From a virus: 32,835 nt of DNA. Under the pieces are notes generated by a model. The model was not told the origin of the DNA. It was given only the letters and a program-made list of their open reading frames with translations, and did not search any database. Below are positions 7,966 through 27,896 of the stretch, one piece after another; position 1 is the stretch's first letter; each line of letters opens with the position of its first letter. Position numbers and translations under genes: made by a program. The stretch spans positions 1 to 32,835 of IMG/VR virus record IMGVR_UViG_3300047392_000060. One strand, given 5' to 3'.

Positions 7966-7972
7966 CTAAATA
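7966..7972 (+). promoter_or_regulatory. CTAAATA box, late-promoter-like, leaderless type
   Basis: The box ends 6 bases before the A of the GNAT start codon at 7978. No Shine-Dalgarno sequence lies between; the nearest AAGG is about 18 bases away. With T4 late-promoter geometry, +1 would be the A of ATG. Confidence 0.6.
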
Positions 7973-7977
7973 GAACT

Positions 7978-8412
7978 ATGATCCAGTATAGAATAGCCGT
8001 AGAAACTGATGTAGAAAAGATAGTAACACTGACCAACCAAATGCTGGCACATACCACACTTGGTTGTGCAACTGAGCCTAAGGTTCGTGCCTTGGTTTGT
8101 AGTCCCAAGACCTTAGTTGAACTGGCATATGATGCAGACCGTTTGGTGGCTTTTGTATGTGGCGTTGCTCACGAAAGTGTGTTCAACGATGTTAAACGAG
8201 TAACGGATATTGGTGTGTTTGTATTACCAGAATACCGCAACACTACCATAGCCACAGAATTGATAAGCCATTTAGAAAAGTGGGCACGAGATCAAAAAGC
8301 CAGCCAATTATGGTTGGGACAAACAACAGGGGACAATCCTCGTGTTGTTGAAAGATTTTACAACCGTTTGGGATTTAAGACTCAGGGGTTTAATTGTTTA
8401 AAGGAATTATAA
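7978..8412 (+). CDS. GNAT-family N-acetyltransferase-like protein
   Basis: A 144-residue protein with the GNAT layout: the beta4 strand and start of helix 3 in IGVFVLPEYRNTTIATELI (residues 78-96), and the typical late motif ERFYNRLGF (125-133). The family transfers acetyl groups from acetyl-CoA to amines. The acetyl-CoA loop, normally Arg/Gln-x-x-Gly-x-Gly/Ala, reads RNTTIA (87-92) and lacks the central glycine, so catalysis is uncertain. It lies between virion genes and has its own CTAAATA box with the ATG immediately behind it. It may modify a host or virion protein. The substrate is unknown. Confidence 0.75.
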   Translation: MIQYRIAVETDVEKIVTLTNQMLAHTTLGCATEPKVRALVCSPKTLVELAYDADRLVAFVCGVAHESVFNDVKRVTDIGVFVLPEYRNTTIATELISHLEKWARDQKASQLWLGQTTGDNPRVVERFYNRLGFKTQGFNCLKEL

Positions 8413-8413
8413 T

Positions 8414-10303
8414 ATGTGCGGTGGATTCGTTGGAGATGTTCTTGATGGCATTGGCGACATTGTAGAAGATGTTGGCGATTTTATTGGCGACACAGTAGAA
8501 GCAATTGTTGATGATCCGTTACAAGCCATTGTCACTGTTGGTGCAATGGCTGTTGGCGTTCCGCCAGTTTGGGCTGGTGCTCTGGGCGGTGCGGCAGGTG
8601 CGGCTGAACACGGTGGCAACATTCTTGAAGGTGCGCTACTAGGTGGTGCCGCAGGTTATGCTGGCGGTGTTGCAGGCAGTGCGGCAAGCGGTGCAGGCGC
8701 AGGAACTATCCTAAGTGGTGCCGCAGGTGGAGCCGCCGCAGGTGCTACTGTAGGTGCTTTAACTGGTGGCGACATTATCAAGAGTGCCTTAACAGGTGCG
8801 GCTGGTGGTGCCCTTGCAGGAACAGCACAAAGTTTCTTCACAAGTCCAAACGGTTCTACAACATACACATACGATGACGGTTCAACTGTAACATACAACG
8901 CAGACGGTGGTGCTGTAAGTTCTACTCCTGCAACTGACGGTTCGTTGGCTCCAGTGTATGAATACAATCCAACGAGTGGTCGTGTTGAATTGGTTGCTCA
9001 AGGCAGTGGTAACAACGTTGGTGTTGAAACCTTACCAGTTGGTTTTGATAACTCAACAGGTCAGGTCAAAGTGCCACACGATTTAGTATCAACTGGTATC
9101 AGTGACTCAGCACCTGGCACAGTTTATAACGGTCCAAATGGCATGGAAGTTGTGTTGGATTCAGGCAAGACAGTGATGTTAAGTGATTACCAAGCCGCAA
9201 TTGACAGTGGTATGCCAATCTCAATTGATGGCAACATGACTACTGATTTCCGTGTGGAAAGTTCAGGCTTGCCTCGCAGTGCAGAAAACCCAGGAACTGG
9301 CACATTGCCAGATGGTTTTGAACTTGCCAGTATCGAAAACTCAAACGGTGCTCGTTGGGATGACACATTAGAAACTTATGTTAATCCAACAACAGGTGCT
9401 TACTATGACCAAGCCAGCAATGCTTGGGTTCAGGCTGTTGGCGCAGTTGCTCCTACTGATGGTGGCTTTGGTATTCCAGACAGTTATGTTGCTCCTGTCA
9501 CAGTCAATCCAGACGGTTCTACAACTACACAAAACTACAACGGAAGTGTAACTACTACTTTCAGCAACGGGAGCACTATCACAACTAATCCTGATGGAAC
9601 TTATATCTCTCGTGATGCAACAGGTTCTACTCAAACTGGCAGCAGTGGCAGTGAAACCAGTGGCGGTATCAACACAGGTGCTGGCACAACTTATGTGTAT
9701 GACGATGGTAGCACGATTACAATTCACCCTGATGGCACAAGCACTTCAACACCAGCCCCAGGTGATATGACTCCAGTAGGTGATGCAGGTGAAATCACTA
9801 TCACAGCAGATCGTCCAACAAGCACTGTTGCCAATACTGATTTGGGTCCAGTAACAGAATTACCACCAGTAGTTGATTTAACTGGAACACCAGTAACTCC
9901 TACTACACCTACAACTCCACCAGTAATATTCCCTATCACTGGCACAACACCTAAAACACCTACTGGTGGTGTTGATTCAGGTTATACACCTCCGCAGTTT
10001 GCTAACTTGACCAAACCCGTCACAGACATTGGCTTGAGTCCTGGCTTTATTAAACCAGAGCCGTTTTATAACACAACAAACGATGTGCAAAACCAATACT
10101 ATTGGGGTTCGCATGGTTTCCAAACTGGCGATACATTTAATGCACCTGCTTACAACACAGTGCCAGTTGCACCACAAAATCCATTTGGCATTGACCAGAT
10201 GTATGAACAATTAACACCAGAGCAGTTGGCGGCACTAGTCCAGAACCCTGCTTATCAAGCACAAGTAGGCACCATAACTGGTCCAGTTGCGCCGCAAGTT
10301 TAA
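8414..10303 (+). CDS. glycine-rich internal virion/ejection-type protein
   Basis: A 629-residue protein beginning MCGGFVGD, a start often seen in podovirus internal proteins. Residues about 1-55 are acidic and amphipathic, and about 56-145 are a long run of Gly/Ala-rich small-residue segments that could form membrane-inserting helices. The remainder is Thr/Ser/Gly-rich with repeated YDDGST units (at about residues 153-160 and 431-438) followed by similar NADGG or HPDGT phrases, then a Pro/Thr-rich linker at about 495-535. The start has an AAGGA ribosome binding site 8 bases upstream. I infer a role in DNA delivery through the cell envelope. This is based on composition and neighbours, not on recognised homology. 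Confidence 0.55.
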   Translation: MCGGFVGDVLDGIGDIVEDVGDFIGDTVEAIVDDPLQAIVTVGAMAVGVPPVWAGALGGAAGAAEHGGNILEGALLGGAAGYAGGVAGSAASGAGAGTILSGAAGGAAAGATVGALTGGDIIKSALTGAAGGALAGTAQSFFTSPNGSTTYTYDDGSTVTYNADGGAVSSTPATDGSLAPVYEYNPTSGRVELVAQGSGNNVGVETLPVGFDNSTGQVKVPHDLVSTGISDSAPGTVYNGPNGMEVVLDSGKTVMLSDYQAAIDSGMPISIDGNMTTDFRVESSGLPRSAENPGTGTLPDGFELASIENSNGARWDDTLETYVNPTTGAYYDQASNAWVQAVGAVAPTDGGFGIPDSYVAPVTVNPDGSTTTQNYNGSVTTTFSNGSTITTNPDGTYISRDATGSTQTGSSGSETSGGINTGAGTTYVYDDGSTITIHPDGTSTSTPAPGDMTPVGDAGEITITADRPTSTVANTDLGPVTELPPVVDLTGTPVTPTTPTTPPVIFPITGTTPKTPTGGVDSGYTPPQFANLTKPVTDIGLSPGFIKPEPFYNTTNDVQNQYYWGSHGFQTGDTFNAPAYNTVPVAPQNPFGIDQMYEQLTPEQLAALVQNPAYQAQVGTITGPVAPQV

Positions 10304-10309
10304 CTTGCA

Positions 10310-10316
10310 CTAAATA
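10310..10316 (+). promoter_or_regulatory. CTAAATA box, late-promoter-like
   Basis: The box lies 18 bases before the ATG at 10335. The leader has an AAGGA ribosome binding site. Directly upstream, GCAAGTT (10294-10300) and AACTTGC (10302-10308) form an inverted repeat that includes the preceding stop codon. Confidence 0.6.
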
Positions 10317-10334
10317 CAGACAAGGAAAAATATT

Positions 10335-11060
10335 ATGAGTTTTGGAAAAAGTAGCGGCAGTTCAGCCCCAATCACAACACCAGAGCAACGTGCGGCTATT
10401 GCGGCACAAACACAATTGCTGACTGGCACAATCATTCCAGCATATCAAAACGCCACAACAGGTGCAACTGATATTTGGAATCGTTATGCTCCAGGTGTCA
10501 ATAGTGCCGCACAGAACCAAGCAGGTGTTGCTCGACAAGTGCAAGATGTTGTAGGTTCAACTGGCGAAAGTGCATTACGCACTGGTATTAGTGGATTAGA
10601 AAACTTGTTCAATCCAGATTATGAGCGTATTCAGATTCAAAATGCACTAGCACCTGCTCAAGCACAATACGCACAGAACTTGGAAATGCAAGGTCGCGGG
10701 TTTGGTGCTAGTGGTAATTTACGCAGTGCTCGTCAAGCCTTGGCTGATCGTCAATTGGCTGGTGCTACTCAAGGTGCTCAGATGAAAGCCGCTGGCGATA
10801 TCATGCAACAAATTGCTGGTCAAAGATTAAGTGCGGCGTCACAGTTGGCACAACTTGGTCAAGGTGGTCTTGGTCAAGCACTTGGTGCGGCTGGTGCAGG
10901 TGTCAGTGCGGCAAAGACTCCGCAAGATTTGTATTCACAATACGCCAGTATCTTATACGGCACACCACAGAATACATACACGCCAGATTTCCGTGGCACT
11001 CAAGGAACAACCAAAACTGGTTATGAGGCTGGTTTAAATTTTAAAGGCATCATGCCTTAA
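10335..11060 (+). CDS. internal virion/DNA ejection-like protein
   Basis: A 241-residue protein, rich in Ala, Gln and Gly, with long predicted helices. The central phrase RGFGASGNLRSARQALADRQLAGA (quoted in part: SARQALADRQ) is the type of arrangement seen in podovirus internal core proteins that leave the head before the DNA. There is no signal peptide or enzymatic motif. It lies between the Gly-rich protein and the lytic transglycosylase, and such triplets of internal proteins are usual in podoviruses. The function is inferred from composition and order. Confidence 0.55.
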   Translation: MSFGKSSGSSAPITTPEQRAAIAAQTQLLTGTIIPAYQNATTGATDIWNRYAPGVNSAAQNQAGVARQVQDVVGSTGESALRTGISGLENLFNPDYERIQIQNALAPAQAQYAQNLEMQGRGFGASGNLRSARQALADRQLAGATQGAQMKAAGDIMQQIAGQRLSAASQLAQLGQGGLGQALGAAGAGVSAAKTPQDLYSQYASILYGTPQNTYTPDFRGTQGTTKTGYEAGLNFKGIMP

Positions 11061-11085
11061 TAACGGGATACTAAGGAATAATAAT

Positions 11086-13425
11086 ATGGCATATGATGCA
11101 TTTGGTAATTATGTGGGTCCTGATATTGAAGCAGTTGATCCATACTCATACGAAACTGAAGAAGAACGCCGTAAGCGTTTGGCTTCAGAAGTAAAAACAA
11201 AACGCGAAGTCACCACTTACGGTGATGGTAGTCAAACTCACACTGTCAAGGAAGAAATCCCTGCGGCTGTAAATCCAGAAACTTTTGCTCGCATGCAACA
11301 GGTGGAAAGTGGCGGTCGTGATTTTGATGCACAAGGTCGTCCATTAACAAGCCCTGCTGGTGCCATGTTCCGCAATCAGGTTATGCCTGCAACTGCGGCT
11401 AATCCAGGCTTTGGCGTTCGTCCAGCCGCAGATCAAACTCCAGAAGAATACAATCGTGTTGGTCAAGAATATTACCAAGCATTATTGAAAAAGTATAACG
11501 GTGATGAACGAGCAGCCGCCGCAGCCTACAATGCAGGTCCAGGTCGTGTTGATTTGAACATTGCCGCCAATGCTGGTCAAATGAATCCTGCACAGTTGCC
11601 TCGTGAAACTCAAGGTTATTTGGGCAAGGTATTCAATGCAATGATTCCAAGTGCTCAAGCAGGAACATTACCACAAGGTCAAGCACAGCGTCCTGCAACA
11701 ATTACTCCACCTGCGGCACCAATTTCACCGCAAGCAATGGCGGCTCAAGGTGCGGCACAACCACGCATGCAAATTGATGATGAAGGCAATCGTTTAATCA
11801 CCAATGCAGATGGCACAACCACCATATTGGGTGCAAACAATCGCCCCTTAATGGCTGGTGGTATGGAACCTCGTGATACACCAGAGTTTCGTAATCGTTT
11901 GTTTGAAGAAGCAGGCAAAGACCCGTTCAAGTGGATGGAGATCAGCAAGCAACCTGAGTTCGCACAGTTTCCAGCAATGCAAACTGTTGCCAAAGAACAG
12001 GCTCGTGCTTTACTAGAACAAGATTTTAAAATGAGTGCGGCTAAAGAGCAAGCCACTCAAGCAATCCAAGCCGCCGCAAGTGGTGATCCCAAGGCTGGTC
12101 GTGCTATTGCTGATGAATTAAAGAATCAAGATGGTTCATGGGTTAAAATGATTTTGCTTGGTTTCCTAAGCCCACAACTTGCTGGTGAAGAAGCAGTTAA
12201 ACTAGGCTTTGGCAACAAGTGGCAAAGTGTGTCCAATGAAAAAGGCGAAACAGCCTTAATTCAAGTCAATGCCAAAGGCATGCCCCTAAAAGGTATCTCC
12301 GCAGACAACAAACCTCTAACGCAAGAACAACTTGCAAGTTTTGCAACTGGTGGCAAGCGTGAATTAGATTTAGTTGGTGGCACATACATCAATGACAAAA
12401 CTGGTGAAGTTGGTCGTGTTGTAACAGACAAGAAAACTGGTCAATCGTATATCCAAACTGATACAGGTCGTCGTGGTATGACAGGTTTCCGTCCGCAGTC
12501 GAGCACTGGCGGATTGGCAGACATGCGTGCTCGTCAAGTTCAAGAAATCAACCTTAAATTGCAAGGCAAAGGCGTTGAAGAACAGATGGCTATCCTGCGT
12601 GACTATAACAAAGCATTGGTTGGTCAAGGTTTTGTTCCTGTTCAACCTGCTGAAGTTAATATTGCTGTGCCACAAATTGCTGGCGGTGCTCCTGCACCTG
12701 CGGCTCCTGTTGCGCCACAACCTGCTGGCACAATTGCTCCATTATCAGCACCTGCTGGTAGTGGTGCGCCTGTTGCTCCAGTTCCCCTAGCACAAGCCCC
12801 ACAAGGTCGCGTTGCTCCTGCTGGTGCTCGTCCATCAATTAGCCAACTTGAAGCAGGTAAAGCAGCCGCAAAAGAAATTGCAACTGAAGCAGGCAAAACT
12901 GTAGCAGCCAGTGCTGACACGCAAAATATGATTAACAGTATCGACAATAAAGTATTGCCTATCTTAGAAAGTGGCAAGCACAATGTTGGTAGTCTTGGTA
13001 GTGCTATCGTGGGTCGTGGTCCAATTGCACAAGGTATTGGCGCACAGTTTGAAACGCAAGATGCTAAAAATACCAAGTTGGTTTTAGACACTGTTAATAA
13101 GTTGGCAGTTGAAGGTATGAAAGCATTAGGTAGTAATCCAAGCACAGTTGATTTACAGTTCTGGACAGCAAACAAGCCAGGTGCCAACAGCGATCCTGAG
13201 TTTATGAAAGAATGGATTGAAAGTCGCAGTGCTGAATTAAAGCGCAAGTTAGGTTACGCACAAACTCAAGTTGGTGCTGGCGGTGCCGCAGGCAATGCCC
13301 CAGCAGTTGCCAAAGAAGAACCTGTTAAGAAGTTAAGTAGAGAAGATACACAGGCACTTGAGTGGGCACGCAATAACCCTGATGACCCAAGAGCCAAACA
13401 AATTAAACAACGATTAGGATTATAA
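11086..13425 (+). CDS. virion-associated lytic transglycosylase, internal protein
   Basis: A 779-residue protein with an SLT-type lysozyme-fold domain at about residues 62-160: catalytic glutamate in QQVESGG (E74), SPAGAM...QVMPATA (89-104) and AAYNAGPGRVD (146-156), the order expected for soluble lytic transglycosylases that cut the glycan strand between MurNAc and GlcNAc. The usual Gly after GAM is replaced by FRN. The rest is a long helical body, a Pro/Ala-rich linker at about 530-590 and a helical tail. In podoviruses such fusions (compare T7 gp16) are ejected and open a local hole in the peptidoglycan. It has a GGA-type ribosome binding site before the ATG and is followed after two bases by the next large internal protein. 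Confidence 0.8.
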   Translation: MAYDAFGNYVGPDIEAVDPYSYETEEERRKRLASEVKTKREVTTYGDGSQTHTVKEEIPAAVNPETFARMQQVESGGRDFDAQGRPLTSPAGAMFRNQVMPATAANPGFGVRPAADQTPEEYNRVGQEYYQALLKKYNGDERAAAAAYNAGPGRVDLNIAANAGQMNPAQLPRETQGYLGKVFNAMIPSAQAGTLPQGQAQRPATITPPAAPISPQAMAAQGAAQPRMQIDDEGNRLITNADGTTTILGANNRPLMAGGMEPRDTPEFRNRLFEEAGKDPFKWMEISKQPEFAQFPAMQTVAKEQARALLEQDFKMSAAKEQATQAIQAAASGDPKAGRAIADELKNQDGSWVKMILLGFLSPQLAGEEAVKLGFGNKWQSVSNEKGETALIQVNAKGMPLKGISADNKPLTQEQLASFATGGKRELDLVGGTYINDKTGEVGRVVTDKKTGQSYIQTDTGRRGMTGFRPQSSTGGLADMRARQVQEINLKLQGKGVEEQMAILRDYNKALVGQGFVPVQPAEVNIAVPQIAGGAPAPAAPVAPQPAGTIAPLSAPAGSGAPVAPVPLAQAPQGRVAPAGARPSISQLEAGKAAAKEIATEAGKTVAASADTQNMINSIDNKVLPILESGKHNVGSLGSAIVGRGPIAQGIGAQFETQDAKNTKLVLDTVNKLAVEGMKALGSNPSTVDLQFWTANKPGANSDPEFMKEWIESRSAELKRKLGYAQTQVGAGGAAGNAPAVAKEEPVKKLSREDTQALEWARNNPDDPRAKQIKQRLGL

Positions 13426-13427
13426 AC

Positions 13428-16058
13428 ATGGCAGAGTTCGATCCAGATGCATATCTGAATAAAGAAGATAAGAAAAAGAAGTCTGGTTTTGACCCTGATG
13501 CTTATCTTAAAAAGACAGAACCAGAATCAGCACTACAAACCTTTGGGCGTAGTAGTGCTAGTCTGGCTGACTCCGCATTAAATGCCTTAACAGGCACCTT
13601 AGATTATGGTGCTTATGCATTGGCTCGTGCGGCAGGGCGTAGCCCAGAACAAGCAACAGCAGAAACAACTAGTCCAAAGGATGTGTTTGGTCGTGCGTTT
13701 GGCGTTACTGGCACGCAAGGCTATGAACAAGCACCTTTGCGTCAAATTGGCACAGCCATTGGCGAAGGTTTGCAAAGCAGTGTGATTCAACCTGTTGCAC
13801 AAACAACTGGATTGCCAGAAGGCGATGTTGGCAACATGTTAAACAGTTTGATGATGGGTGCAGGCCCAGCAGTTCCTAAAGTAGCAGGCGCAGTTGGTCG
13901 TGGTGCTGTTAATACAGGTAAAGCAGTTGTTAAAGCCCCCGTAGATGTTATTAAAGGTGCGGCAGGCAGAGCCACAGGTTACATTGCCAAGCCTGGAGAA
14001 ACACCAACTGGTTATCAAGTTCCAAGTAGCCGTATTCCATTAGGCGATACTTTTATTCCACCCGCTGAAATGGCAAGATTAGAAGCAGGATTGCCAATGA
14101 GCGAAGGTGCTGTGCGCCCTATTAGTGAATTAGCACCTGCTCCTGTGCTTGCGTTAAGTGGCGGTGAAATTCCTGCGTCTGGTCAAGCAATGCGTGCGTT
14201 TGGTGAGCGAATTGGTGAAACATACAGCAATCCATATACTGCCGCCGCTGACATTGGCAGTATGTTTTTAACAGGTGGTATTCCTGTTTTAACTGGTATG
14301 CGTGGCGCATTAGGTATAGCACAAGGTGCCGCAGATGCATACTTAGCACGCAAAGGATTCAAATCATTATCACCTGAACAACAAACAATATTAAATCAGG
14401 GTGGTAATCCATTTATTGCACCTGGCGCAGTAAAGCCAAGTGATATTCCACAACCTATTCGTGAAGCCGCCGCCGCAAGAGTTACTCCTGTGCAACCACA
14501 GTTGGGTTATTCACCAACTCCAACACCTCAAACAATTCCTATGGGCGGTCCAGGTCGTCGTGTGAATATTGAAGGTGAAAGTTTCAACTTGCCTTACGAA
14601 ATTGATACAAGCCGTGTTCAACCAACTGGTCCTCGTCAAGTTGCGCCGCAACCTACTATTGGTCCAGTTGCGCCTGAAACTATTACTCCTGCTCCAGCAG
14701 TAGCACCTGTTGAAAGCATGTTGGGACAAAAACTTACACCTGAACAAATCCTTGCTCAAATTCAAGCACGCAGTGGTAAAAAAGGTGCAGGCATATTTGA
14801 AACGGCAGGCGAAGCACCGCCAGCACCTATTGACTTGGGTGCCAATCGTGCAAGTTTCCTTGACAAGATCAATCAGCATCGTGCTGGTTTGGAAGAAACT
14901 CGTGCTCAGAATCGTGAAACATTTAGTGGCACAGCAGAAAACTTGGGTCGTGGCACTGAAGCAGAACGCCTAGCCAGAATGACTCCTGCTGAACGATCAG
15001 ATTACTTGTTCCGTCAGGGTTTAAAATCAGATACCATGACTGATGCGGCAGTTGTCAAAGACATGATTGACACAACTACCAACACTGGTATCAGACGCAA
15101 CAACAAAACCAACATTGTTGATAACAGTGTGTTTGATGAATTTGCGGCTGATGCAGGTGTGTTGTTGGATTGGAGCACTGCACCAGACATTAGTAAAATG
15201 GGTTGGGCTGATGGCAGAAAAGCCATGAGTGATTGGATGTATAAGCAGGTCAAAACTCCAGCCAATGATTTGGGCTTAGATGCTCGCACTGGTGGTATCC
15301 GTGGTCAAATGCGCCAAATGGAAGAAGCCAACAAAAATATTCAGCCTGTCAATCCAGCAGAAGAAGCCGCCGCATTAAACGCCGCTCAAGAACGCATGAA
15401 ACGGTTGCGTGGTGGTTCAATGGAAATGATGAGCAATGAAGCCACATTAGGTTCCAGACAAAATCCATTTAGTGATATTAACATGGCATGGGATGAAGCA
15501 ATTTTAAACAAGATTACAAGTCCTGCCAGCCACGATATCACTTACAAGTTGCCTGACGGTGTAGTGTCACGCGAAATCAAACAGCCTGGTAGAATCGAAC
15601 ATATCAGTTATGATCCATCCACAGGCAGCGAAACTTCGTATATCACCAACATCATGGGCAAACACAAAGAATATGTGGTTCGCAAATCTCACAGAGATGG
15701 TCAAGTATTTGAAAGCAAAACATATGCAGAAAAACCAGAAGGATTCCCAAGAGAATTAGGTTCGCCTGCACCTGAACCAACCATGACCAAAAAAGAGTTT
15801 ATGGAAGAATTTGCAATGGCAAGATTAAGTGGTGATAAGTTGCCAACAGGCACATACATTGATGGTGATTACACTATTGTGAAAAAGCCATTTAGAATTT
15901 ATGAAAACTTAAACCCGCAACAGCGTAAAGATTTCTTAAAAGCAGGTGGTGTTGAACAACTTTCTCAACGATTTGAAACTGCCACTGGTAAAGTTGATGT
16001 AGAGTATGCAACCAAACTTGCAAAACAAATCAAAAAAGCCATGAATAAAATGGACTAA
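13428..16058 (+). CDS. large internal virion protein with FDPDAYL repeats
   Basis: An 876-residue protein. The N terminus carries two copies of a short motif, FDPDAYLNK (residues 4-12) and FDPDAYLKK (21-29), separated by a Lys-rich spacer; similar tandem motifs are known at the start of phage internal proteins and may be docking peptides. Residues 35-320 are Ala/Gly-rich helices, 340-450 is a Pro-rich linker, and 460-680 is charged and helical. The C-terminal part (from about 700) is a beta-rich domain around GRIEHISYDPSTGSETSY. No catalytic motif is recognised. It lies two bases after the transglycosylase gene and is probably ejected with it. The stop codon is part of the next CTAAATA box. 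Confidence 0.6.
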   Translation: MAEFDPDAYLNKEDKKKKSGFDPDAYLKKTEPESALQTFGRSSASLADSALNALTGTLDYGAYALARAAGRSPEQATAETTSPKDVFGRAFGVTGTQGYEQAPLRQIGTAIGEGLQSSVIQPVAQTTGLPEGDVGNMLNSLMMGAGPAVPKVAGAVGRGAVNTGKAVVKAPVDVIKGAAGRATGYIAKPGETPTGYQVPSSRIPLGDTFIPPAEMARLEAGLPMSEGAVRPISELAPAPVLALSGGEIPASGQAMRAFGERIGETYSNPYTAAADIGSMFLTGGIPVLTGMRGALGIAQGAADAYLARKGFKSLSPEQQTILNQGGNPFIAPGAVKPSDIPQPIREAAAARVTPVQPQLGYSPTPTPQTIPMGGPGRRVNIEGESFNLPYEIDTSRVQPTGPRQVAPQPTIGPVAPETITPAPAVAPVESMLGQKLTPEQILAQIQARSGKKGAGIFETAGEAPPAPIDLGANRASFLDKINQHRAGLEETRAQNRETFSGTAENLGRGTEAERLARMTPAERSDYLFRQGLKSDTMTDAAVVKDMIDTTTNTGIRRNNKTNIVDNSVFDEFAADAGVLLDWSTAPDISKMGWADGRKAMSDWMYKQVKTPANDLGLDARTGGIRGQMRQMEEANKNIQPVNPAEEAAALNAAQERMKRLRGGSMEMMSNEATLGSRQNPFSDINMAWDEAILNKITSPASHDITYKLPDGVVSREIKQPGRIEHISYDPSTGSETSYITNIMGKHKEYVVRKSHRDGQVFESKTYAEKPEGFPRELGSPAPEPTMTKKEFMEEFAMARLSGDKLPTGTYIDGDYTIVKKPFRIYENLNPQQRKDFLKAGGVEQLSQRFETATGKVDVEYATKLAKQIKKAMNKMD

Positions 16059-16061
16059 ATA
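16055..16061 (+). promoter_or_regulatory. CTAAATA box, late-promoter-like, leaderless type
   Basis: The box contains the stop codon of the previous gene and ends 6 bases before the A of the Dps-like start codon at 16067. No Shine-Dalgarno sequence lies in between. Confidence 0.6.
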
Positions 16062-16066
16062 AGCAC

Positions 16067-16978: not shown

Positions 16979-17002
16979 ATGCAAGTCCTTTCAATGATAG
17001 TG

Positions 17003-17009
17003 TATTTAC
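17003..17009 (-). promoter_or_regulatory. GTAAATA box on minus strand, possible promoter
   Basis: GTAAATA read on the minus strand lies 24 bases before the minus-strand ATG at 16978, with an AAAGGA ribosome binding site between. It differs from the plus-strand CTAAATA boxes at the first base, so the assignment is tentative. Confidence 0.35.
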
Positions 17010-17028
17010 CGCAACTGCTACTGGCTTG

Positions 17029-17035
17029 CTAAATA
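17029..17035 (+). promoter_or_regulatory. CTAAATA box, late-promoter-like, leaderless type
   Basis: The box ends 7 bases before the A of the ATG at 17042. The interval contains only A and T and no Shine-Dalgarno sequence. Confidence 0.6.
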
Positions 17036-17041
17036 AAATAT

Positions 17042-17398
17042 ATGGAAAAGAACAAACAAAAAGCAAAGCCAAACGGAGGTCGTGGAGGCGCAAGACCAGG
17101 AGCAGGTCGTCCCAAAGGTGCCCGTGAAAATATCAGCATCAAGCAATTGCTTGAAGCACTGGAAGCCAAAAGTGGTGGTCGTGATTATGAGGATATTCTG
17201 GTCGAGGACTTTTTAGAAGCCCGTATGAACAACGATACTCAAACCACCTTGAAGTATCATAACCTAATCTTGAACAAAGTTATGACCAACATGGCAAAGA
17301 TCGAAATTACAGATAGCAAAGATGCTATTGAAGCAAAACAGGCGGCATTTGCAGAAGCACTAGCACGACTTGTAGGCGTTAATCCTGAGGCTAAATAA
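17042..17398 (+). CDS. terminase small subunit-like protein
   Basis: A 118-residue protein with a basic Gly/Arg-rich N terminus, GGARPGAGRPKGAR (residues 15-28), a phrase common at the start of phage small terminase and related DNA-binding proteins. A helical region follows (SIKQLLEALEAKSGG, then EDFLEARMNND and HNLILNKVMTNMAK). Small terminase recognises the packaging site and loads the large subunit. The assignment rests on this N-terminal motif, size and location in the packaging half of the genome. A general DNA-binding protein is possible. The stop codon lies within the CTAAATA box of the next gene. Confidence 0.55.
   Translation: MEKNKQKAKPNGGRGGARPGAGRPKGARENISIKQLLEALEAKSGGRDYEDILVEDFLEARMNNDTQTTLKYHNLILNKVMTNMAKIEITDSKDAIEAKQAAFAEALARLVGVNPEAK
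17391..17397 (+). promoter_or_regulatory. CTAAATA box, late-promoter-like, leaderless type
   Basis: The box contains the stop region of the preceding gene and ends 5 bases before the A of the ATG at 17402. A weak GAGG lies just upstream of the box. Confidence 0.5.
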
Positions 17399-18136: not shown

Positions 18137-18862
18137 ATGAGTGGCGGATGGAACCCAGGCGTGGGGAATAACGCAGGCATGGGCGGTGGCAAATCTACAG
18201 GATTTGGCATACCAATAACAGGCGATCAGACCACTGGCAATCCACAAGGTCCGCAAATGGGCTTTGGTTTCAATCCCAATACTGACATGCCTTTTACTGG
18301 CGGTCAAAATGCTGGCAATGTGCTTGGTCAAGGTATTGATTCTATTCTGGGCGCAACACCAATTGGCGGTGCGTTCAATCAAGCACTAGGCGGTCAAAGT
18401 ATTGGCAGTGTAGTTGGCAATGGCCTTGGTTCAATCCTTGGACAGCAACCTATGCTTGGCGGTATCGCCAGTTCATATGACCCTGCGGCTGATTTGAACA
18501 AAGGACCATATCCTGCACAACAACCTATGCCAACAAGCGGTATGGGCGGCGGTAAAACAGTTGGTTTTGGATTACCAATAACAGGCGATCAGACCACTGG
18601 CAATCCACAAGGTCCGCAAATTGGTTTTGGTCCAGCACCAATTGAACAAAATCCAATGGATATATTTGGTTTGCCAGGTGCCAAAAATTATAATAGACAA
18701 AGCCCAATTATTGGCAGCATGCCAGCACCGCAACCAGTAAATCGTTTTGCTCCACCTAATGCCCCTGGCGTTAGACAGCAACCACGAACAGCACCAAGAG
18801 CAGGTATTCCTGTTCAAAGTGCTAGAACTTTGCGCCCAACCACACGCACTAGACTTCGCTAA
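18137..18862 (+). CDS. Gly/Pro-rich repeat protein
   Basis: A 241-residue low-complexity protein, rich in Gly, Pro, Gln and Asn. It contains two copies of a roughly 30-residue unit: GMGGGKSTGFGIPITGDQ... (from residue 14) and GMGGGKTVGFGLPITGDQ... (from residue 135), each followed by TTGNPQGPQ. At DNA level a 49-base block is identical (18210-18258 and 18573-18621). GGGKS/T in the repeats resembles a P-loop but no other ATPase motif is present, so I do not call an ATPase. The C terminus is Pro/Arg-rich. Probably a virion or packaging accessory; the function is unknown. The stop region carries the next CTAAATA box. Confidence 0.6.
   Translation: MSGGWNPGVGNNAGMGGGKSTGFGIPITGDQTTGNPQGPQMGFGFNPNTDMPFTGGQNAGNVLGQGIDSILGATPIGGAFNQALGGQSIGSVVGNGLGSILGQQPMLGGIASSYDPAADLNKGPYPAQQPMPTSGMGGGKTVGFGLPITGDQTTGNPQGPQIGFGPAPIEQNPMDIFGLPGAKNYNRQSPIIGSMPAPQPVNRFAPPNAPGVRQQPRTAPRAGIPVQSARTLRPTTRTRLR
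18210..18621 (+). repeat. 49-base exact direct repeat inside the Gly/Pro-rich gene
   Basis: The blocks 18210-18258 and 18573-18621 are identical over 49 bases and lie 363 bases apart, in frame (121 codons). They encode the repeated PITGDQTTGNPQGPQ segment. The flanks are similar but diverged, which fits an internal duplication, or continued homogenisation. Confidence 0.85.
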
Positions 18863-18865
18863 ATA
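18859..18865 (+). promoter_or_regulatory. CTAAATA box with hairpin at predicted 5' end
   Basis: The box overlaps the preceding stop codon. With T4-like geometry, transcription would begin at about 18871, so the mRNA would open with the hairpin at 18873-18897. Confidence 0.6.
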
Positions 18866-18872
18866 GAACGAC

Positions 18873-18897
18873 AGCAAGGGGACAGACTCCCCTTGCT
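18873..18897 (+). ncRNA. 5' untranslated stem-loop, or terminator
   Basis: AGCAAGGGG (18873-18881) pairs perfectly with CCCCTTGCT (18889-18897) around a 7-base loop. There is no T-tract after it, so I favour a 5' end mRNA structure over a terminator. It could protect the downstream message from decay or attenuate read-through. Confidence 0.55.
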
Positions 18898-18924
18898 ACT
18901 GCATAGAAAATAAAGGAAATGAAC

Positions 18925-19743: not shown

Positions 19744-20045
19744 TGACTGATCCAATCATCCGTAACACGATGATTGACCAAGCACAGCAAGAGCGTATGA
19801 CTCGTGATACGCTCATTCTACAAAAGGTCAATCATGCACATCGTGAAGCATTTGTGCAAAAGTTTCCAGGTCAATGCGAGCATATCTTGCGGTTGATTGC
19901 TGAACGATTACAAGCAGTTATGACCAACAAACCTGCACAACTCAATGACCCAGAAACTTGGACAGCAACTGCGGCTGAGATCGAAAGTCTTGCCAACGCA
20001 CTACATGCAGTTTATGAAATTCACAAGGATATTGCTCATGATTAA
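19743..20045 (+). CDS. small helical hypothetical protein
   Basis: A 100-residue helical protein. I place the start at the ATG at 19743, which overlaps the preceding TAA by one base; a TTG start further upstream has no support. It is Gln- and Ala-rich with a helix pattern (HREAFVQKFPGQCEHILRLIAERLQAV; quoted in parts). Family not recognised. Its position directly before large terminase would also fit a small terminase or packaging cofactor, competing with the call at 17042. Confidence 0.6.
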   Translation: MTDPIIRNTMIDQAQQERMTRDTLILQKVNHAHREAFVQKFPGQCEHILRLIAERLQAVMTNKPAQLNDPETWTATAAEIESLANALHAVYEIHKDIAHD

Positions 20046-20220
20046 CTTGACCAAACATGCAACCAGTCGTGTTGATGCAGAAATTTCTCGTCATGCAGAT
20101 GTGATCTATCTGCGTTTGGTTCGCACTGATGAGGATACTGGTGCGAGCCACTTTACATTGGTGTTGGATGAAACAGACCTTGAGCATTTTATCTCAACCC
20201 TAATTGAACTTCAGGAATAA
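20038..20220 (+). CDS. small hypothetical protein
   Basis: A 60-residue protein. I chose the ATG at 20038 because AAGGA sits 8 bases upstream and the short overlap with the preceding gene is normal here; longer upstream extensions read through the neighbour. It shows an alternating strand pattern (DVIYLRLVRTDEDTG then HFTLVLDET) and an acidic C-terminal helix. Function unknown; it is co-transcribed with large terminase. Confidence 0.6.
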   Translation: MINLTKHATSRVDAEISRHADVIYLRLVRTDEDTGASHFTLVLDETDLEHFISTLIELQE

Positions 20221-20222
20221 AA

Positions 20223-21845: not shown

Positions 21846-21854
21846 GGAACAGCA

Positions 21855-22109
21855 ATGAAACAAGAAATGAACGGTAAGTTTTTGACAACAGTGGCAGATC
21901 AACCCCCTGCCATTTTGTGTGAAAATCATGCGCGAGTGTTTGAAATGGCCATGTTAGCCAATGCGATTCCTCACACAATTTATGAAATGGATGATGAGGA
22001 CGGTCCATATTACTGCCATGCGTGTGATTTACAAGTGGCAAAAGCCTATGCCAAGCAAGTTGAGGAGGCAAACACGCCCCGCATCATTATGCCAGGCGAA
22101 TACAACTGA
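21855..22109 (+). CDS. small Cys/His protein between terminase and portal
   Basis: An 84-residue protein with two metal-ligand-like pairs, CENH (residues 22-25) and CHAC (54-57), spaced about 30 residues apart; these could form a zinc-binding site. The rest is acidic and helical. AAGGAA lies upstream of the ATG. It follows the large terminase gene by 9 bases. I do not recognise a family, and the zinc site is inferred from spacing only. Confidence 0.62.
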   Translation: MKQEMNGKFLTTVADQPPAILCENHARVFEMAMLANAIPHTIYEMDDEDGPYYCHACDLQVAKAYAKQVEEANTPRIIMPGEYN

Positions 22110-22111
22110 TG

Positions 22112-22118
22112 CTAAATA
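22112..22118 (+). promoter_or_regulatory. CTAAATA box, late-promoter-like, before portal
   Basis: The box lies 27 bases before the portal ATG at 22146; the leader contains AAAGGA. Confidence 0.6.
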
Positions 22119-22145
22119 AGAAATCAGTAAAGGAAACTTAACCAG

Positions 22146-24425
22146 ATGTTAAACATCAAGAATATCCCTGTGCAGGACATTAATCAAAACAACAAGACTA
22201 ATGCCACTTTTGTCCGCATGAAGAACCAAATGGACGTTAAAATGGCGTCCTACTTGCGTTATCTAGGCACCAAAAACGCAGTAAATCGTGCGTCAGACTA
22301 TCACTACCTGTGCCTTGCAGTTACTGATTCTACTGCACCTGTCAATGGCATTGACTACATCCATCCCAGTGTAAAACCAGTTGTGGATTACGCAACAGCC
22401 GTTATTGCCAAGGGTCTTACTCCCAATGGCGAAATCAATTTTGACTTTGTTGCTGATGGCGAGGAAGATGAAGTCGCGGCAAGACAAGCCACAAACATGG
22501 TCAGCAAGGTTGTCAATCAAATGAATGACCCGCACTTTGTAATGGAACGTTGGGCAATGGACTCAGTTATGCACAAAAACGGCATGATGATGATTAAGCC
22601 AGTCCGTGAGCAAATTGTTCGTTATGTCGAAACCAGCGGAACCGCAGATCAATTACGAGCATTTGAATTACAAGCCGCTGAAGCAGGTTTAACTGCACTA
22701 CGCCAAAGCAAACGCCGCGAAACAGTGGATATGATGAAAGTCATGGAAGAAGCCACACAACTTCTAGGCACACAAAAAACAGAATATGCCAAAGGCGTTG
22801 CTCAAAAGTTCATGCTAGACATTACTGAAAGTGATGAAGCAGCCCAACAGTTTGGCGAGCAAGGCGATGCTATCGTTCAAGGCAACTTAGACGAACAAGA
22901 AAGCATTATCCAAGACAGTATTCGTCGCAACACCACATACAAAGCCAAATATAAATTAACTGGCTACAACATCAACATTCGTTTCCATCCTATTGCACAG
23001 CACTATTGGATTTGTGATCCAACTGTGCCTGAAATGAAAGATCAACCTTTCTGCGGTTACTACGACCCAATGACAATTCAAGAAGCCCTTGAGTTATATC
23101 CAGGCATCAACTTGGAAGAATTCCGTGAGTATGCAGAATACAACATGAACGGTGCTTACCAAGCAGGTTCAGTGTTGAACAACTTGGCTATTCACGCTCG
23201 TGACAGTGTGCCAGTTATGGGTATTCCTGTAAGTAGTGCGGCTAGTGCTGATCCAGATAGTCGCCAAGTTAGTATCGTTACTGTTTGGAACAAGTATGAC
23301 ATTGACGGTGATGGTGAATTGGAACTAGTGGAACTTATCTATAGTGGTAGTTACATCATTAGTGCTAGAGAAGTAGAGTTTATTCCTGTTGCCAACATGT
23401 GTCCAAAACCACTGCCAGGAAACTTCTATGGTATGAGTATTGCTGAAAGTGTTATTCCAATGCAGGAATACCAAACCAGTGCGGCTCGTGCTGAGATTCA
23501 ATTGGGCTTGCTAACTGCTACACCTCGTATTGGTGTTAAACCAGACCGTGTTGATTTTGAAATGATGCAAGACGGTGAAAGTGCAATCTTTATTTTAGAC
23601 AGTAAGTTTGACCCAAGCAAAGACATTTACCAAATGCCACCTCCAAGCGGTAATCTACAGTTCTTAGAAGTTGCAATGAACCGTATTCAACAAGATACTA
23701 TGGCAATGGTAGGTATGACTACACCACAAGATGTGTTCAACCCAGAAGTTATGGCACCTGGCAATTCAGGTATCAAGTTGCAGATGGCTCTGTCGCCTAA
23801 CCAAATTATCCAAGACAACACAGTTCGCAATGCGGCGGAAGGTTTGAAAGAAGCCTTATGGTTGGTATGGCGCACCTTAATTCAGTATGGTGATGACTAC
23901 GGTGTTAAGAAATTGGCACAAAGCAGTCACCCAGACAAAAAGCCAGAGTTCCTAGACTTCCTAGCATGGGATGACATGAACTTCTGTGACCGCAAACAAG
24001 TGCATTTGGAATTGGCGTTGGGCATGATGAGTGATGAAAACGCACTTGGTCGCCTACAAATTATCCAAAAGTGCCAAACAGACTTGTATCAAATGGTTCA
24101 AGCAATGGTTGGTGCTGGCAGTTTAACACCAGAAATGTTCAAGAAAGTCAAGAAGCCGTTTGAAGATACCTTATATGTGCTTGGCGTAAAAGACTGCAAC
24201 ACATACTTGCCAACTGATGAAGAAGTCATGGCAATGATCGAAGCAGGCAAAGCCGCAGGTGCAAACAAACAGCCAAGCCCAACAGATCAAAAGGATATCA
24301 GTGCGGCAAAGTTGAATGATACAAAAGCCAAACAAATTGAAGCAGAAATTGCTGGCACTGATGCCAACTCGCAATTGAACTTTATGGCAATGGCGGCTGG
24401 CAAACCAACTGACTACAACAACTGA
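22146..24425 (+). CDS. portal protein
   Basis: A 759-residue portal, within the range of podovirus portals of the P22-like type. Recognisable parts are the clip/stem-side segment HPIAQHYWICDPT, an acidic strand-turn DIDGDGELELVEL (about 380-395), FIPVANMCPKPLPGNFYGMSIAES (quoted in parts; about 410-435) and the following IPMQEYQTSAARAE helix. The C-terminal 100 residues are charged helices, possibly a barrel. A ring of twelve such subunits forms the DNA channel at one vertex and binds terminase and then the adaptor. It sits in the usual order terminase, portal, scaffold, capsid. Confidence 0.88.
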   Translation: MLNIKNIPVQDINQNNKTNATFVRMKNQMDVKMASYLRYLGTKNAVNRASDYHYLCLAVTDSTAPVNGIDYIHPSVKPVVDYATAVIAKGLTPNGEINFDFVADGEEDEVAARQATNMVSKVVNQMNDPHFVMERWAMDSVMHKNGMMMIKPVREQIVRYVETSGTADQLRAFELQAAEAGLTALRQSKRRETVDMMKVMEEATQLLGTQKTEYAKGVAQKFMLDITESDEAAQQFGEQGDAIVQGNLDEQESIIQDSIRRNTTYKAKYKLTGYNINIRFHPIAQHYWICDPTVPEMKDQPFCGYYDPMTIQEALELYPGINLEEFREYAEYNMNGAYQAGSVLNNLAIHARDSVPVMGIPVSSAASADPDSRQVSIVTVWNKYDIDGDGELELVELIYSGSYIISAREVEFIPVANMCPKPLPGNFYGMSIAESVIPMQEYQTSAARAEIQLGLLTATPRIGVKPDRVDFEMMQDGESAIFILDSKFDPSKDIYQMPPPSGNLQFLEVAMNRIQQDTMAMVGMTTPQDVFNPEVMAPGNSGIKLQMALSPNQIIQDNTVRNAAEGLKEALWLVWRTLIQYGDDYGVKKLAQSSHPDKKPEFLDFLAWDDMNFCDRKQVHLELALGMMSDENALGRLQIIQKCQTDLYQMVQAMVGAGSLTPEMFKKVKKPFEDTLYVLGVKDCNTYLPTDEEVMAMIEAGKAAGANKQPSPTDQKDISAAKLNDTKAKQIEAEIAGTDANSQLNFMAMAAGKPTDYNN

Positions 24426-24449
24426 TAACTACAATTTTAAGGAAACGCA

Positions 24450-24803
24450 ATGATTAGTGAAGAAGCAGTTGATGCCTACAATCGTAGGCTCACAATTGAT
24501 ACAAGTAATGTTAAGAAACTTACGCCAAGTCAGCGAGATGCTGTAAAAAGTTATGGCAGTTTGGCAGAAGCCCTGCTGAAAAATCGTGACTTGGCTATGT
24601 TCATACACCACTTTAAATTTGAAGTAAATGATAGTTTGGCAAACATTCGCACTCATACTCCAGACGCAAATGCAGAACGAGTAGCACTGGCAAACCAGTT
24701 AAGTGGCATTGATAGTTTTGTGAATACACTGAAAAGTGCTGTTTATAAACGAACAGTGTTGTTGAGAGCAGAAGCCACTGAAAATATTTCGACAGAACAA
24801 TAA
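24450..24803 (+). CDS. small hypothetical protein between portal and scaffold
   Basis: A 117-residue, mainly helical protein with no recognised family. The ATG is preceded by AAGGAAA. It lies 25 bases behind the portal stop in the same transcript and before a CTAAATA box at 24811. A head-assembly accessory role is suggested by position only. Confidence 0.6.
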   Translation: MISEEAVDAYNRRLTIDTSNVKKLTPSQRDAVKSYGSLAEALLKNRDLAMFIHHFKFEVNDSLANIRTHTPDANAERVALANQLSGIDSFVNTLKSAVYKRTVLLRAEATENISTEQ

Positions 24804-24810
24804 ACAAATA

Positions 24811-24817
24811 CTAAATA
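24811..24817 (+). promoter_or_regulatory. CTAAATA box, late-promoter-like, before scaffold and capsid genes
   Basis: The box lies 46 bases before the ATG at 24864; AAGGA precedes the start. This site would give a separate boost to scaffold and major capsid protein transcription. Confidence 0.6.
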
Positions 24818-24863
24818 AACATACAGGTAATCCATACGGACCCTATACAATTTAAGGATAGAT

Positions 24864-26033
24864 ATGACAGATACAACGACAAGTCCTAACACCCCAGGTG
24901 CGGATACTAGTCAAAGCGCAGTTCCAAGTTTGGACTCTATAGCACAGAAAATGACCGCAATGCGTGAAACCACCATGCGTAACCAAATTCGTGCTACTGA
25001 ACAAACTGCAACAGGTCAAGATGATGCGGCAGCAGACTCAAGCCCTGTAGCACCCAGCGATAATGCTGATGCTGAAGTTGCTGATACTAGCGACACAGAA
25101 TATGCCAGCGACAATCAAGAAGCAGATGCCCAGTATGATGATACTGTAAGCACTGGTAGTAATGATTCTAGTGCAGACGAATTGATTGACTTTATTGAGT
25201 TCGCAGAAACGAACCCAAACGCCAAATTCAAATTTATGAAGAATGGTAAAGAAGTTGTCATTGATGCCAAGAAAGCCGCCGCAATTCTAGGTCAAGGTAG
25301 CGCAATACACGAAGAAGCACGCCAACTAAAAGTTGATAAGGCAGAGTTTGAGGAATACTTAAACGATGTGCGATCAAGACAAGAAGGTTTGACTTTGGCA
25401 ATGGAATTTACTGTGCAACCTAAGTTGCAGAAAGCCTATGATGAGATTTTAAAAACGCAATCTTATCAAACAACTTTCCAACAGCAGTTAGCACAAACCC
25501 GTGATCCAGCGCAAATTGCGCGGATTCAGGCAGGTATGCAACAGAACGAACAATATATTCGCCAGCAACAACAAGTCATTGGACAGTTGAAGCCAGCAGT
25601 AGATCAGTTCCGTGCAGTGCGTGCCCAACAGGTAGTAGAGCGTTTAGATCATGCTCGTAAGAACTTTACAGACAAAGAACTGAAAAATGAATTTGTCTTT
25701 AATGAAGTGCGAGACAAGATTGCGAAACTATGGCCTGAAGCCCGTGGTGAGATTATTCCAGGCGTTGCCAATATCGACTTGCTATCAAGTGACGAAGGAT
25801 TGTTAAGCCTAGTCCGTGATGGTTTGCGATACAGAGACAAACCCGCCGCAAAAAGTGCTGGTAATAGCATGGCGGCATTGACAAGTCGTAAAGGATCATC
25901 AACACAGCGTGGCAGTGGAGATAGTGATATTTCAAAACTTCGTGAGCAAGCCAAAAGCGGCGACAAAAAAGCCGCAGACAACCTCTTAGTGGCTCAGTTG
26001 CAAAGATTGCGACAGTCAAGAGGTTCAAGGTAA
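24864..26033 (+). CDS. scaffold protein
   Basis: A 389-residue protein with the composition of a podovirus scaffold: an acidic, Ala/Asp/Thr-rich disordered first 110 residues, a small folded segment (FIEFAETNPNAKFKFMKNGKEV; quoted in parts) and a long Gln/Glu/Arg-rich coiled-coil region at about 145-265. The basic C-terminal tail (KPAAKSAGNSMAALTSRKGSS; quoted in parts) could contact the capsid shell. Scaffolds guide prohead assembly and then leave. Its place immediately before the major capsid gene supports this. Confidence 0.78.
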   Translation: MTDTTTSPNTPGADTSQSAVPSLDSIAQKMTAMRETTMRNQIRATEQTATGQDDAAADSSPVAPSDNADAEVADTSDTEYASDNQEADAQYDDTVSTGSNDSSADELIDFIEFAETNPNAKFKFMKNGKEVVIDAKKAAAILGQGSAIHEEARQLKVDKAEFEEYLNDVRSRQEGLTLAMEFTVQPKLQKAYDEILKTQSYQTTFQQQLAQTRDPAQIARIQAGMQQNEQYIRQQQQVIGQLKPAVDQFRAVRAQQVVERLDHARKNFTDKELKNEFVFNEVRDKIAKLWPEARGEIIPGVANIDLLSSDEGLLSLVRDGLRYRDKPAAKSAGNSMAALTSRKGSSTQRGSGDSDISKLREQAKSGDKKAADNLLVAQLQRLRQSRGSR

Positions 26034-26055
26034 TTTATTTTAAAGGAATAAAATC

Positions 26056-27225
26056 ATGGCAGAAATCACTACGAGTCAGATTGGTAACGGAACTACCGCT
26101 TACGGTTCAGACATTGTTGTTAAGGACTTAGACCTAGATGTGTCTAACCGTGTAAAAGACGATACACCAGTATTGAACATGGCTATGTCCAAAAAGCGTA
26201 AAGTTAATTCTACGCTACCATTATGGACTGACGATATCTATCGCGCTCCAGCAGTTCAGGCACAAATGGAAGGTGCCGCAGTTAATATTAACCAAGGTGA
26301 ATCTAACTCACGTTACAACTTGGGTAACTATACTCAAATCTTCTCTACAGTTATTGCTTCAACTGGAACTGCTCGTGCAGTTATGCAAGCGGGCGGCGAC
26401 CCCCAAGCATATATGGAAGTTAAGCAATTGATCGAATTGATGTTCGACGTTGAGATGCAATTGGTTCGTAACGACCAAATTGGCACAAAGTATGCAGGTC
26501 AATCTGGCACTGCTAGTGGCTTGCCAAGTGGTCAAACTGGTCGTCGTATGGGTTCATTGGCTTCTTTTGCAGGCACACAATCCTTCAACACAACTAGTGG
26601 CACATTGACAGGTTTAACAACCTTCACAAACAACGAATCAACAGACAGTTCTACAAGTGCGGCTGATACATTAAGCATCAGTGCTAACGGTAGCAACTAC
26701 TACGCTGGCACATTCACAAACCAGTTGTTCTCTCCTGCTCTATACAAGCAGTTGGTAACTGTTGCTGAACAGCGTTACAACGCCAAGATTCGCACTGTTG
26801 TTGCTCCTACAAGCCTACGCACAAGTCTTTCTGACAACATGCCTCAGTCTCGTGGTATCAACCGTGTTGATAGTGCTCGTGGCGACACAATTCAGACATA
26901 CGAAGGCGACTTCAACTACACATACGAAATCCACGATTCTTGGATCATGGACCAAGCAGGTGTAAGCAACAGCATTTACTTCTTGAACGAAGATGTTGTT
27001 CAGTGGGGTTCTTTACGTGATTTAGGTCCAAACAACGAAGTGTTCTCAAACGCTGACGCAAGTTTAGATCAATTTTTACTTGAAGGCACACTAATTGTGC
27101 GTAACCCAGCAGGTGTTGGTATGTTGAACAACATCACAGCAGGCACAAGCACAACACTACCAAGTGCCCGTCCAGCGGCTTTGGTATCTCGTGTAAATGC
27201 AGGCGCAGGCGATGTTACTCCCTAA
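26056..27225 (+). CDS. major capsid protein, possibly DUF5309/SU10-like
   Basis: A 389-residue shell protein following the scaffold gene, with a strong AAAGGA site. The N terminus DDTPVLNMAMSKKRKVNS, then PLWTDDIYRAP (about residues 35-65) resembles the DUF5309/SU10-type HK97-fold capsid proteins: a DTP motif and a W-x-D/DD strand near residue 57. A central surface-like insertion is rich in Thr, Ser and Asn (about residues 165-220). I recognise the family by these short patterns only. It is followed by a strong hairpin terminator, which is typical for the most abundant virion protein. Confidence 0.82.
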   Translation: MAEITTSQIGNGTTAYGSDIVVKDLDLDVSNRVKDDTPVLNMAMSKKRKVNSTLPLWTDDIYRAPAVQAQMEGAAVNINQGESNSRYNLGNYTQIFSTVIASTGTARAVMQAGGDPQAYMEVKQLIELMFDVEMQLVRNDQIGTKYAGQSGTASGLPSGQTGRRMGSLASFAGTQSFNTTSGTLTGLTTFTNNESTDSSTSAADTLSISANGSNYYAGTFTNQLFSPALYKQLVTVAEQRYNAKIRTVVAPTSLRTSLSDNMPQSRGINRVDSARGDTIQTYEGDFNYTYEIHDSWIMDQAGVSNSIYFLNEDVVQWGSLRDLGPNNEVFSNADASLDQFLLEGTLIVRNPAGVGMLNNITAGTSTTLPSARPAALVSRVNAGAGDVTP

Positions 27226-27250
27226 TCTGTAATAAGATTTTGGAAAACAC

Positions 27251-27277
27251 AGAAAAGGGGCTTCGTGCCCCTTTTCT
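27251..27277 (+). terminator. intrinsic terminator after major capsid gene
   Basis: AGAAAAGGGGC (27251-27261) pairs perfectly with GCCCCTTTTCT (27267-27277) around TTCGT. The 3' arm is T-rich and is followed by TTAT. It separates the capsid transcript from the next box. Confidence 0.85.
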
Positions 27278-27299
27278 TATGTCCGCCTAGTTTCAAACG

Positions 27300-27306
27300 C
27301 TAAATA
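27300..27306 (+). promoter_or_regulatory. CTAAATA box, late-promoter-like, leaderless type
   Basis: The box ends 6 bases before the A of the ATG at 27312 and follows the terminator. There is no Shine-Dalgarno sequence in between. Confidence 0.65.
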
Positions 27307-27311
27307 ACACT

Positions 27312-27896
27312 ATGAGCGACTACAATAACCCAGAATACCTAGACGATAAAGACCCAGAAAAAGATGTAAATTACTGGCGTCAAGATCATGGCGGCATGAT
27401 TACAAACCACAACGGTATGGCAGATCGACTGCTACAAAACGATGACCTATATCGTAGCATGAAAGGTGATTGGACACGAACCAGCACCAATAAAAGTGGT
27501 AATATCATTGTGACAACAGGGCGCGAAGATGGTAAGTTCTACATCAAACGCGAACAACAAAACACTGAAGCAATCAAAGCAGGTGTTAGAGAATACAGAA
27601 AAACTGCGGAAGCAGGTATGTTAGACCCGCTTGCTCCAATTGGAGAAGATGGCAAACTAACTTACAAGTGGATGGATTTACCAACAGTTATTGCCATTCG
27701 TATCAGTGACCAATACTTTGATGGTATTCCTTGGAACGCATTAAAGAACGATAGAACCTTAAAGGCACAATTTTATCGTGTGGTGGAAACAGAATATCCA
27801 GAGTATGTGACATATCCTGGCGGCAAATTGCCTATCCCAATCTCAGTGCCTTACCCAACTAAAAAGGGTGAGAAGAAATACTTTAAAGGAATTTAA
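27312..27896 (+). CDS. hypothetical protein after the capsid gene
   Basis: A 194-residue protein of unknown function. The N-terminal half is charged and polar (DDKDPEKDVNYWRQDHGG). The C-terminal half includes TVIAIRISDQYFDGIPW, LKAQFYRVVETEYPEY and a Pro-rich end. Its ATG lies directly behind a CTAAATA box. It is followed by the adaptor-like gene after two bases. A head-completion, decoration or virion role is suggested by position, but no motif supports it. Confidence 0.65.
   Translation: MSDYNNPEYLDDKDPEKDVNYWRQDHGGMITNHNGMADRLLQNDDLYRSMKGDWTRTSTNKSGNIIVTTGREDGKFYIKREQQNTEAIKAGVREYRKTAEAGMLDPLAPIGEDGKLTYKWMDLPTVIAIRISDQYFDGIPWNALKNDRTLKAQFYRVVETEYPEYVTYPGGKLPIPISVPYPTKKGEKKYFKGI

Follow-up and report, generated by a model that had tools for sequence, protein, structure and literature searches.

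Individual phage genes, lambda cI among them, are known to have leaderless mRNAs. Late promoters of the T4 type, which depend on gp55, gp33 and gp45, have the sequence TATAAATA. In T4-like phages the same core is located at −12 or −13 to −6, and the late promoter of phage Aeh1 is CTAAATA with its C at −12 (PMC1524935). Leaderless mRNAs also occur in bacteria, for example in mycobacteria (PMC4633059; reviewed in PMC9031893). A study of pelagimyophages reported that their late promoters could not be predicted (PMC7029224), and no paper in the literature that we searched described late mRNAs without leaders for T4-like or pelagic phages.

The stretch of DNA analyzed here (the window) is a linear IMG/VR record of 32,835 bases. 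It represents a podovirus-like phage contig rather than a T4-like one, with primase genes at its left end and genes for a portal protein (phrog_1216), a major head protein (phrog_1328) and a large terminase, TerL (phrog_2). The nearest annotated relative of its TerL is MW202484, at 48.5% identity. An ORF starting at ATG 32764 (32764–32835) is truncated by the contig end, and a near-identical relative, G009, contains a region that is missing past the end of the window and includes a gene for a protein with two HTH motifs. The uncultured group to which the window belongs matches 506 stretches in IMG/VR. We compared the window with 80 loci whose TerL is 82–99% identical to its own (982 kb including the window); near-complete relatives were fetched and their genes clustered into families for the comparison of spacing. 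Genomes of the clade are roughly 33–39 kb in size, and several contigs (e.g. that of G006) look near-complete judging by gene order. A scan of genomes for a host with TerL gave a single remote match, in a Woesearchaeota bin (26% identity), too distant to be informative.

Our main reading, to which we assign a probability of roughly 0.77, is that the late promoter of this clade consists of a purine followed by [C/A]TAAATA, and that its distance from the start codon sorts genes into leaderless and Shine-Dalgarno (SD)-led ones. The box would play the part of a T4 late promoter, or of a −10 box, with transcription starting about six bases downstream. A box 4–6 bases before ATG would thus yield a transcript that begins at the AUG or about one base away from it. 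A 70S ribosome, or a 30S subunit loaded with initiator tRNA, could then start on the 5′-terminal AUG, with no need for an SD site. A box at least 17 bases upstream would instead leave room for a leader carrying AAGGA and for ordinary initiation. If the Aeh1 position of −12 applies, transcription starts six bases past the box, which at a gap of 5 is the A of ATG; at gaps of 4 or 6, choice of the nearest purine as the start would again give a 5′-terminal or near-terminal AUG. The existence of late mRNAs that are leaderless, or have a leader of at most ~6 nt, is a well-supported prediction from sequence, and the originally predicted 5′ ends at or beside the AUG fit both the geometry and its conservation. 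The role of the box as a promoter, the exact +1, the route of leaderless initiation and the specificity factor are what we infer from these.

The window holds 12 copies of CTAAATA, 11 of them on the plus strand and one on the minus strand, where 3.6 would be expected on both strands together; none of 100 shuffled windows had 12 or more. Five plus-strand boxes had been claimed to lie 5, 5, 6, 4 and 5 bases before ATG, and the recount gave the same gaps. The first (7966–7972) is 5 bases before ATG 7978 of a GNAT acetyltransferase gene, whose orthologue in G010 also has a spacing of 5. The second (16055–16061) overlaps the stop codon of gene 13428–16058 and is 5 bases before ATG 16067 of a Dps/ferritin-like gene (PF00210). 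The third (17029–17035) is 6 bases before ATG 17042 of a terminase-small-like gene (TerS). The fourth (17391–17397), which overlaps the end of TerS, is 4 bases before ATG 17402 of a gene for a 55-aa protein (phrog_16028), and its spacing class is kept in nine of nine orthologues. The fifth (27300–27306) is 5 bases before ATG 27312, which starts the gene for a 194-aa core protein. The remaining six plus-strand copies are 18–67 bases from the next ORF start. They comprise 4398–4404, 21 bases 5′ of gene 4426, and a second copy before the same gene at 4352–4358, 67 bases upstream; 10310–10316, 18 bases 5′ of gene 10335; 18859–18865, 53 bases 5′ of gene 18919 in the TerL operon; 22112–22118, 27 bases 5′ of portal gene 22146; and 24811–24817, 46 bases 5′ of gene 24864, in the operon with the major capsid gene. 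Additional boxes, beyond those listed in the original prediction, have the degenerate form NTAA[AGC]TA. One of them, GTAAATA at 17003–17009 on the minus strand, adjoins the TerS box back to back and has a spacing of 24, with AAAGGA in the leader, to minus-strand gene 16978–16490. That gene is conserved, and its orthologues have a box at 19–28; its protein looks acetyltransferase-like by eye and has no Pfam or PHROG match.

The same two classes are seen across the relatives and the window together. CTAAATA is found there 262 times on the plus strand and 25 times on the minus strand, a ratio of about 10:1. The gap was measured from the box to the nearest downstream ORF start, counting ORFs of at least 40 codons; after deduplication, it was 4 in five cases, 5 in 64 and 6 in 11; beyond 6, a single gap of 13 was followed by values of at least 17, with a mode of 27. 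The nearly empty range of 7–16 fits the model, because leaders of 1 to ~10 nt would be too short for an SD site. ATAAATA has a similar gap distribution, whereas TTAAATA has no strand bias and CTAAATA is strongly preferred over it. The strict pattern of a box, five bases and ATG had 40 matches spread over 26 relatives, compared to one for the reversed-pattern control. About a third of the boxes of the clade are 4–6 bases from ATG. The claimed division into two promoter classes holds as a bimodal distribution of 4–6 versus ~17 and more.

The spacing class is a property of individual gene families, although the relatives are non-independent samples and the independent close-spaced families number about seven or eight. 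Orthologues of TerS have a box at 4–6 in 41 of 41 cases, those of gene 27312 at 5–6 in 38/39, a family of 49-aa proteins at 5–6 in 24/25 and one of 53-aa proteins at 4–5 in 9/9. Among the leadered families, the box is at 20–28 in all 72 portal orthologues and at 18–25 in all 26 orthologues of gene 10335, and it is mostly at 41–49 before those of gene 24864. The family of gene 24450 is mixed, some members having the box at 4 and others at 13–21. Orthologous promoters that lack the exact box carry NTAA[AGC]TA; among Dps orthologues this form is at 4–6 in 14 of 36. Across the close-spaced families the distance to the start codon is 5, with deviations of ±1 only. A comparison with relatives had been proposed along with the original prediction; when it was run, the 4–6 spacing proved to be kept and the letters of the spacer to vary, with 22 distinct versions for TerS, 17 for gene 27312 and 15 for the 49-aa gene. 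The suggestion that the close-spaced class serves mostly accessory or small genes did not hold up, since the two best-conserved members, TerS and gene 27312 (the latter present in 11 of 11 near-complete genomes), are core genes with close spacing wherever they have an exact box in front; the close-spaced degenerate boxes of the Dps orthologues weaken it further. At three sites (G004 35621, G005 18221 and G006 24048) a box lying inside a 2OG-oxygenase-like gene, in its 3′ portion, is followed 4 bases on by ATG and only a short ORF; an overlooked leaderless small gene is possible at each.

How does this box compare with T4-type late promoters? It has the identical TAAATA core, which T4-type promoters have at about −11 to −6, and is exactly the CTAAATA of Aeh1. 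It likewise has no −35 element: we observed no conserved hexamer 16–18 bases upstream of the box in either class. It is also used for structural and packaging genes, namely the portal gene, TerS, the TerL operon and the capsid operon. Both classes share an extended motif, A-N-R-[C/A]TAAATA, and an AT-rich patch 8–12 bases further upstream. There are, however, clear differences. At position −13, where T4-type promoters carry T (or A) and T is typical of T4, the clade avoids T (4–6%) and has a purine in ~90% of cases. In Aeh1, CTAAATA is 5 bases before ATG in only one of 38 cases, and in T4 the pattern of a box 4–6 bases before ATG is at control level. Promoters of the host sigma-70 type (TTGACA, 17 bp, TATAAT) are absent at the boxes. 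Perfect or near-consensus examples are found elsewhere, in what is presumably the early region of relatives (G006 15339, G006 19256 and G008 29423), so the boxes form a separate promoter class. At G004 26779, G004 28651 and G008 29423 a near-consensus sigma-70-type promoter has its TATAAT 6 bases before ATG, which suggests that host-type promoters may also give leaderless starts in G004 and G008; some of the ORFs at these three sites are very short.

The other major difference is that no gp55 homologue was found in the clade. Searches of 81 contigs in six frames with phmmer and hmmsearch --max, using our own profiles, gave no gp55 but found the positive control; a very divergent factor could escape them. 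A search with phrog_234 also gave no match and did not recover its positive control either. Sigma region 2 (PF04542) was absent in the small phages, with the control recovered. For a T7-type RNA polymerase, PF00940 did not recover the control, and large genes were inspected instead: those of near-complete relatives include no RNA polymerase candidate, and no large unassigned gene fits. Two other proteins were considered as the late factor and rejected. The two-HTH protein (G004 24237–24926) is present in six near-complete contigs but absent from G001–G003, which have boxes, and its predicted model has no sigma-like match. The other, conserved in the early region of G006, G008 and G010 and 218 aa long, has a predicted alpha/beta fold with no PDB match at E ≤ 0.001 and does not look like a sigma factor. 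Given that the searches found none of the expected proteins, the box may be read by a factor of the phage itself that has diverged, by an alternative sigma of the host, or by a late sigma that a T4-like phage supplies in co-infection. The resemblance to T4-type late promoters therefore stands as regards the way of working but not as strict membership, as the searches found no gp55, no other sigma and no phage RNA polymerase, and the clade avoids T at −13.

The same layout is present in HTVC008M (NC_020484), a T4-like phage of Pelagibacter, where the box is exactly 5 bases before 12 annotated coding starts and 6 before another. Eleven plus-strand starts have a box at 4–6, whereas 1000 rotations used as the null gave 0.25 on average and 3 at most. 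The close-boxed genes include those for head closure, the tail-tube cap and a baseplate wedge subunit. As in our clade, [CA]TAAATA at exactly 5 bases before ATG coexists with leadered boxes. The genomes otherwise differ: that of HTVC008M is large and T4-like, with its own late sigma and unrelated genes, and its box is usually followed by G. HTVC008M encodes gp55 and a gp45-type clamp, as well as an annotated late-promoter factor. In total it has 59 copies of [CA]TAAATA on the plus strand and 5 on the minus strand, and boxes are also found 18–72 bases before other annotated genes. In a survey of T4-like phages for [CA]TAAATA 4–6 bases before ATG, HTVC008M stood out with 16 sites versus 5 in the control. 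Counts were moderately raised in Mosig (11 versus 4) and Melnitz (7 versus 2), and phiAS4 had 3 versus 0. They were at control level or slightly raised in T4, Aeh1, S-PM2, S-CAM1, MED4-213, S13, Apostate, PM2, P-SSM4, S-ShM2, phiM12 and KVP40. HTVC008M is an independent recurrence of the close-spaced layout of the small phages. In the sister clade (MW202484, ~50% TerL identity) the boxes are absent (25 on the plus versus 14 on the minus strand); an apparent TATAAT there, 4 and 10 bases from ATG, was rejected because it is inside the TerL gene.

These comparisons bear on where transcription starts. The box by itself does not set +1, and some of its degenerate forms, ATAAGTA for example, look like the promoters that single-subunit polymerases use, of which the yeast mitochondrial promoter ATATAAGTA is an example. 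If transcription began within or just after the box, for instance at its last base, the close-spaced genes would have leaders of ~5–6 nt. We regard this as unlikely: the near-complete relatives have no candidate single-subunit RNA polymerase among their large genes, T4-like phages place the same core upstream at −12 or −13 to −6, and HTVC008M, which encodes gp55, has the identical spacing.

We now turn to translation of the leaderless class predicted by the main reading. ATG is the start codon in 112 of 113 cases at gaps of 4–6, the other being TTG. An SD 5-mer precedes 6 of 115 close-spaced starts, which is the random level (4.4% for random ATGs), whereas it precedes 134 of 173 leadered starts; the claim that close-spaced genes have no SD site is thereby confirmed. 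The starts of close-spaced genes are rich in A and fold weakly, at −1.2 versus −3.2 kcal/mol for the first 40 nt. With known leaderless mRNAs the predicted messages share a 5′-terminal AUG, the absence of an SD site, the preference for AUG and weak structure. They differ in belonging to a late regulon, in which fixed gene families have one box at a fixed distance, and in including a packaging gene.

A/U-rich sequence before AUG can help SD-less initiation, and the composition of the close-spaced starts would also agree with the box being a translation enhancer, the genes being read without SD sites from upstream transcripts. However, the same box with the same flanks is also found 17–76 bases 5′ of SD-bearing genes, and an enhancer would not account for the strong preference for CTAAATA over the strand-unbiased TTAAATA. 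Moreover, two genes need promoters of their own. The upstream neighbor of TerS is transcribed divergently and has a separate box on the minus strand. Upstream of gene 27312, a hairpin resembling an intrinsic terminator (27251–27277, plus strand) follows the capsid gene and ends 22 bases before the box; its region folds at −19.8 kcal/mol (z −4.4). Such a hairpin was found in 35 of 36 distinct orthologous regions, 8–28 bases from the box among the examples listed, and its conservation argues that the message of gene 27312 starts at the box. Given this layout, the predicted messages of both genes must start within a few dozen bases, in which there is the box but no SD site. Together, these features make the enhancer explanation very improbable.

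A different hairpin, at 18871–18899 on the plus strand, is located just after box 18859, within the leader that precedes gene 18919. All 35 distinct orthologous leaders have a hairpin close to the box; its loop is often ACAGACT, and it is possibly a 5′ stabilizer or regulatory element. It was rejected as a marker of +1 because the distance from the box to its start ranges from 1 to 19 bases.

Finally, 31 of 115 close-spaced and 73 of 173 leadered boxes share bases with the preceding gene's stop codon, but the notion that they are merely stop-codon-containing words at tightly packed gene junctions is scarcely credible in view of the shuffles, the strand bias and the reversed-pattern control, the free intergenic space around the TerS and gene 27312 boxes, and the 60 of 115 close-spaced boxes with no plus-strand gene end within 60 bases, for which compaction fails to explain the short spacing.

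As a broader and more tentative proposal, which we hold at somewhat less than even odds, a clade with no gp55, recognizable sigma or RNA polymerase of its own may run a late regulon from a T4-late-like box through an unrecognized factor, or through a late sigma borrowed from a T4-like phage in the same cell. Promoter distance would sort its late genes into leaderless and SD-led ones, possibly altering their expression when SD-dependent initiation is limiting.

Phage leaderless mRNAs have so far been mostly single cases. Here, promoter geometry alone predicts a leaderless class gene by gene, with conservation, and this class includes a packaging gene. The predictions could be used for testing leaderless translation directly during infection and for better calling of start codons and promoters in pelagiphages. 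They also point to a putative factor for late transcription in this group of uncultured phages, of which IMG/VR contains hundreds of relatives.
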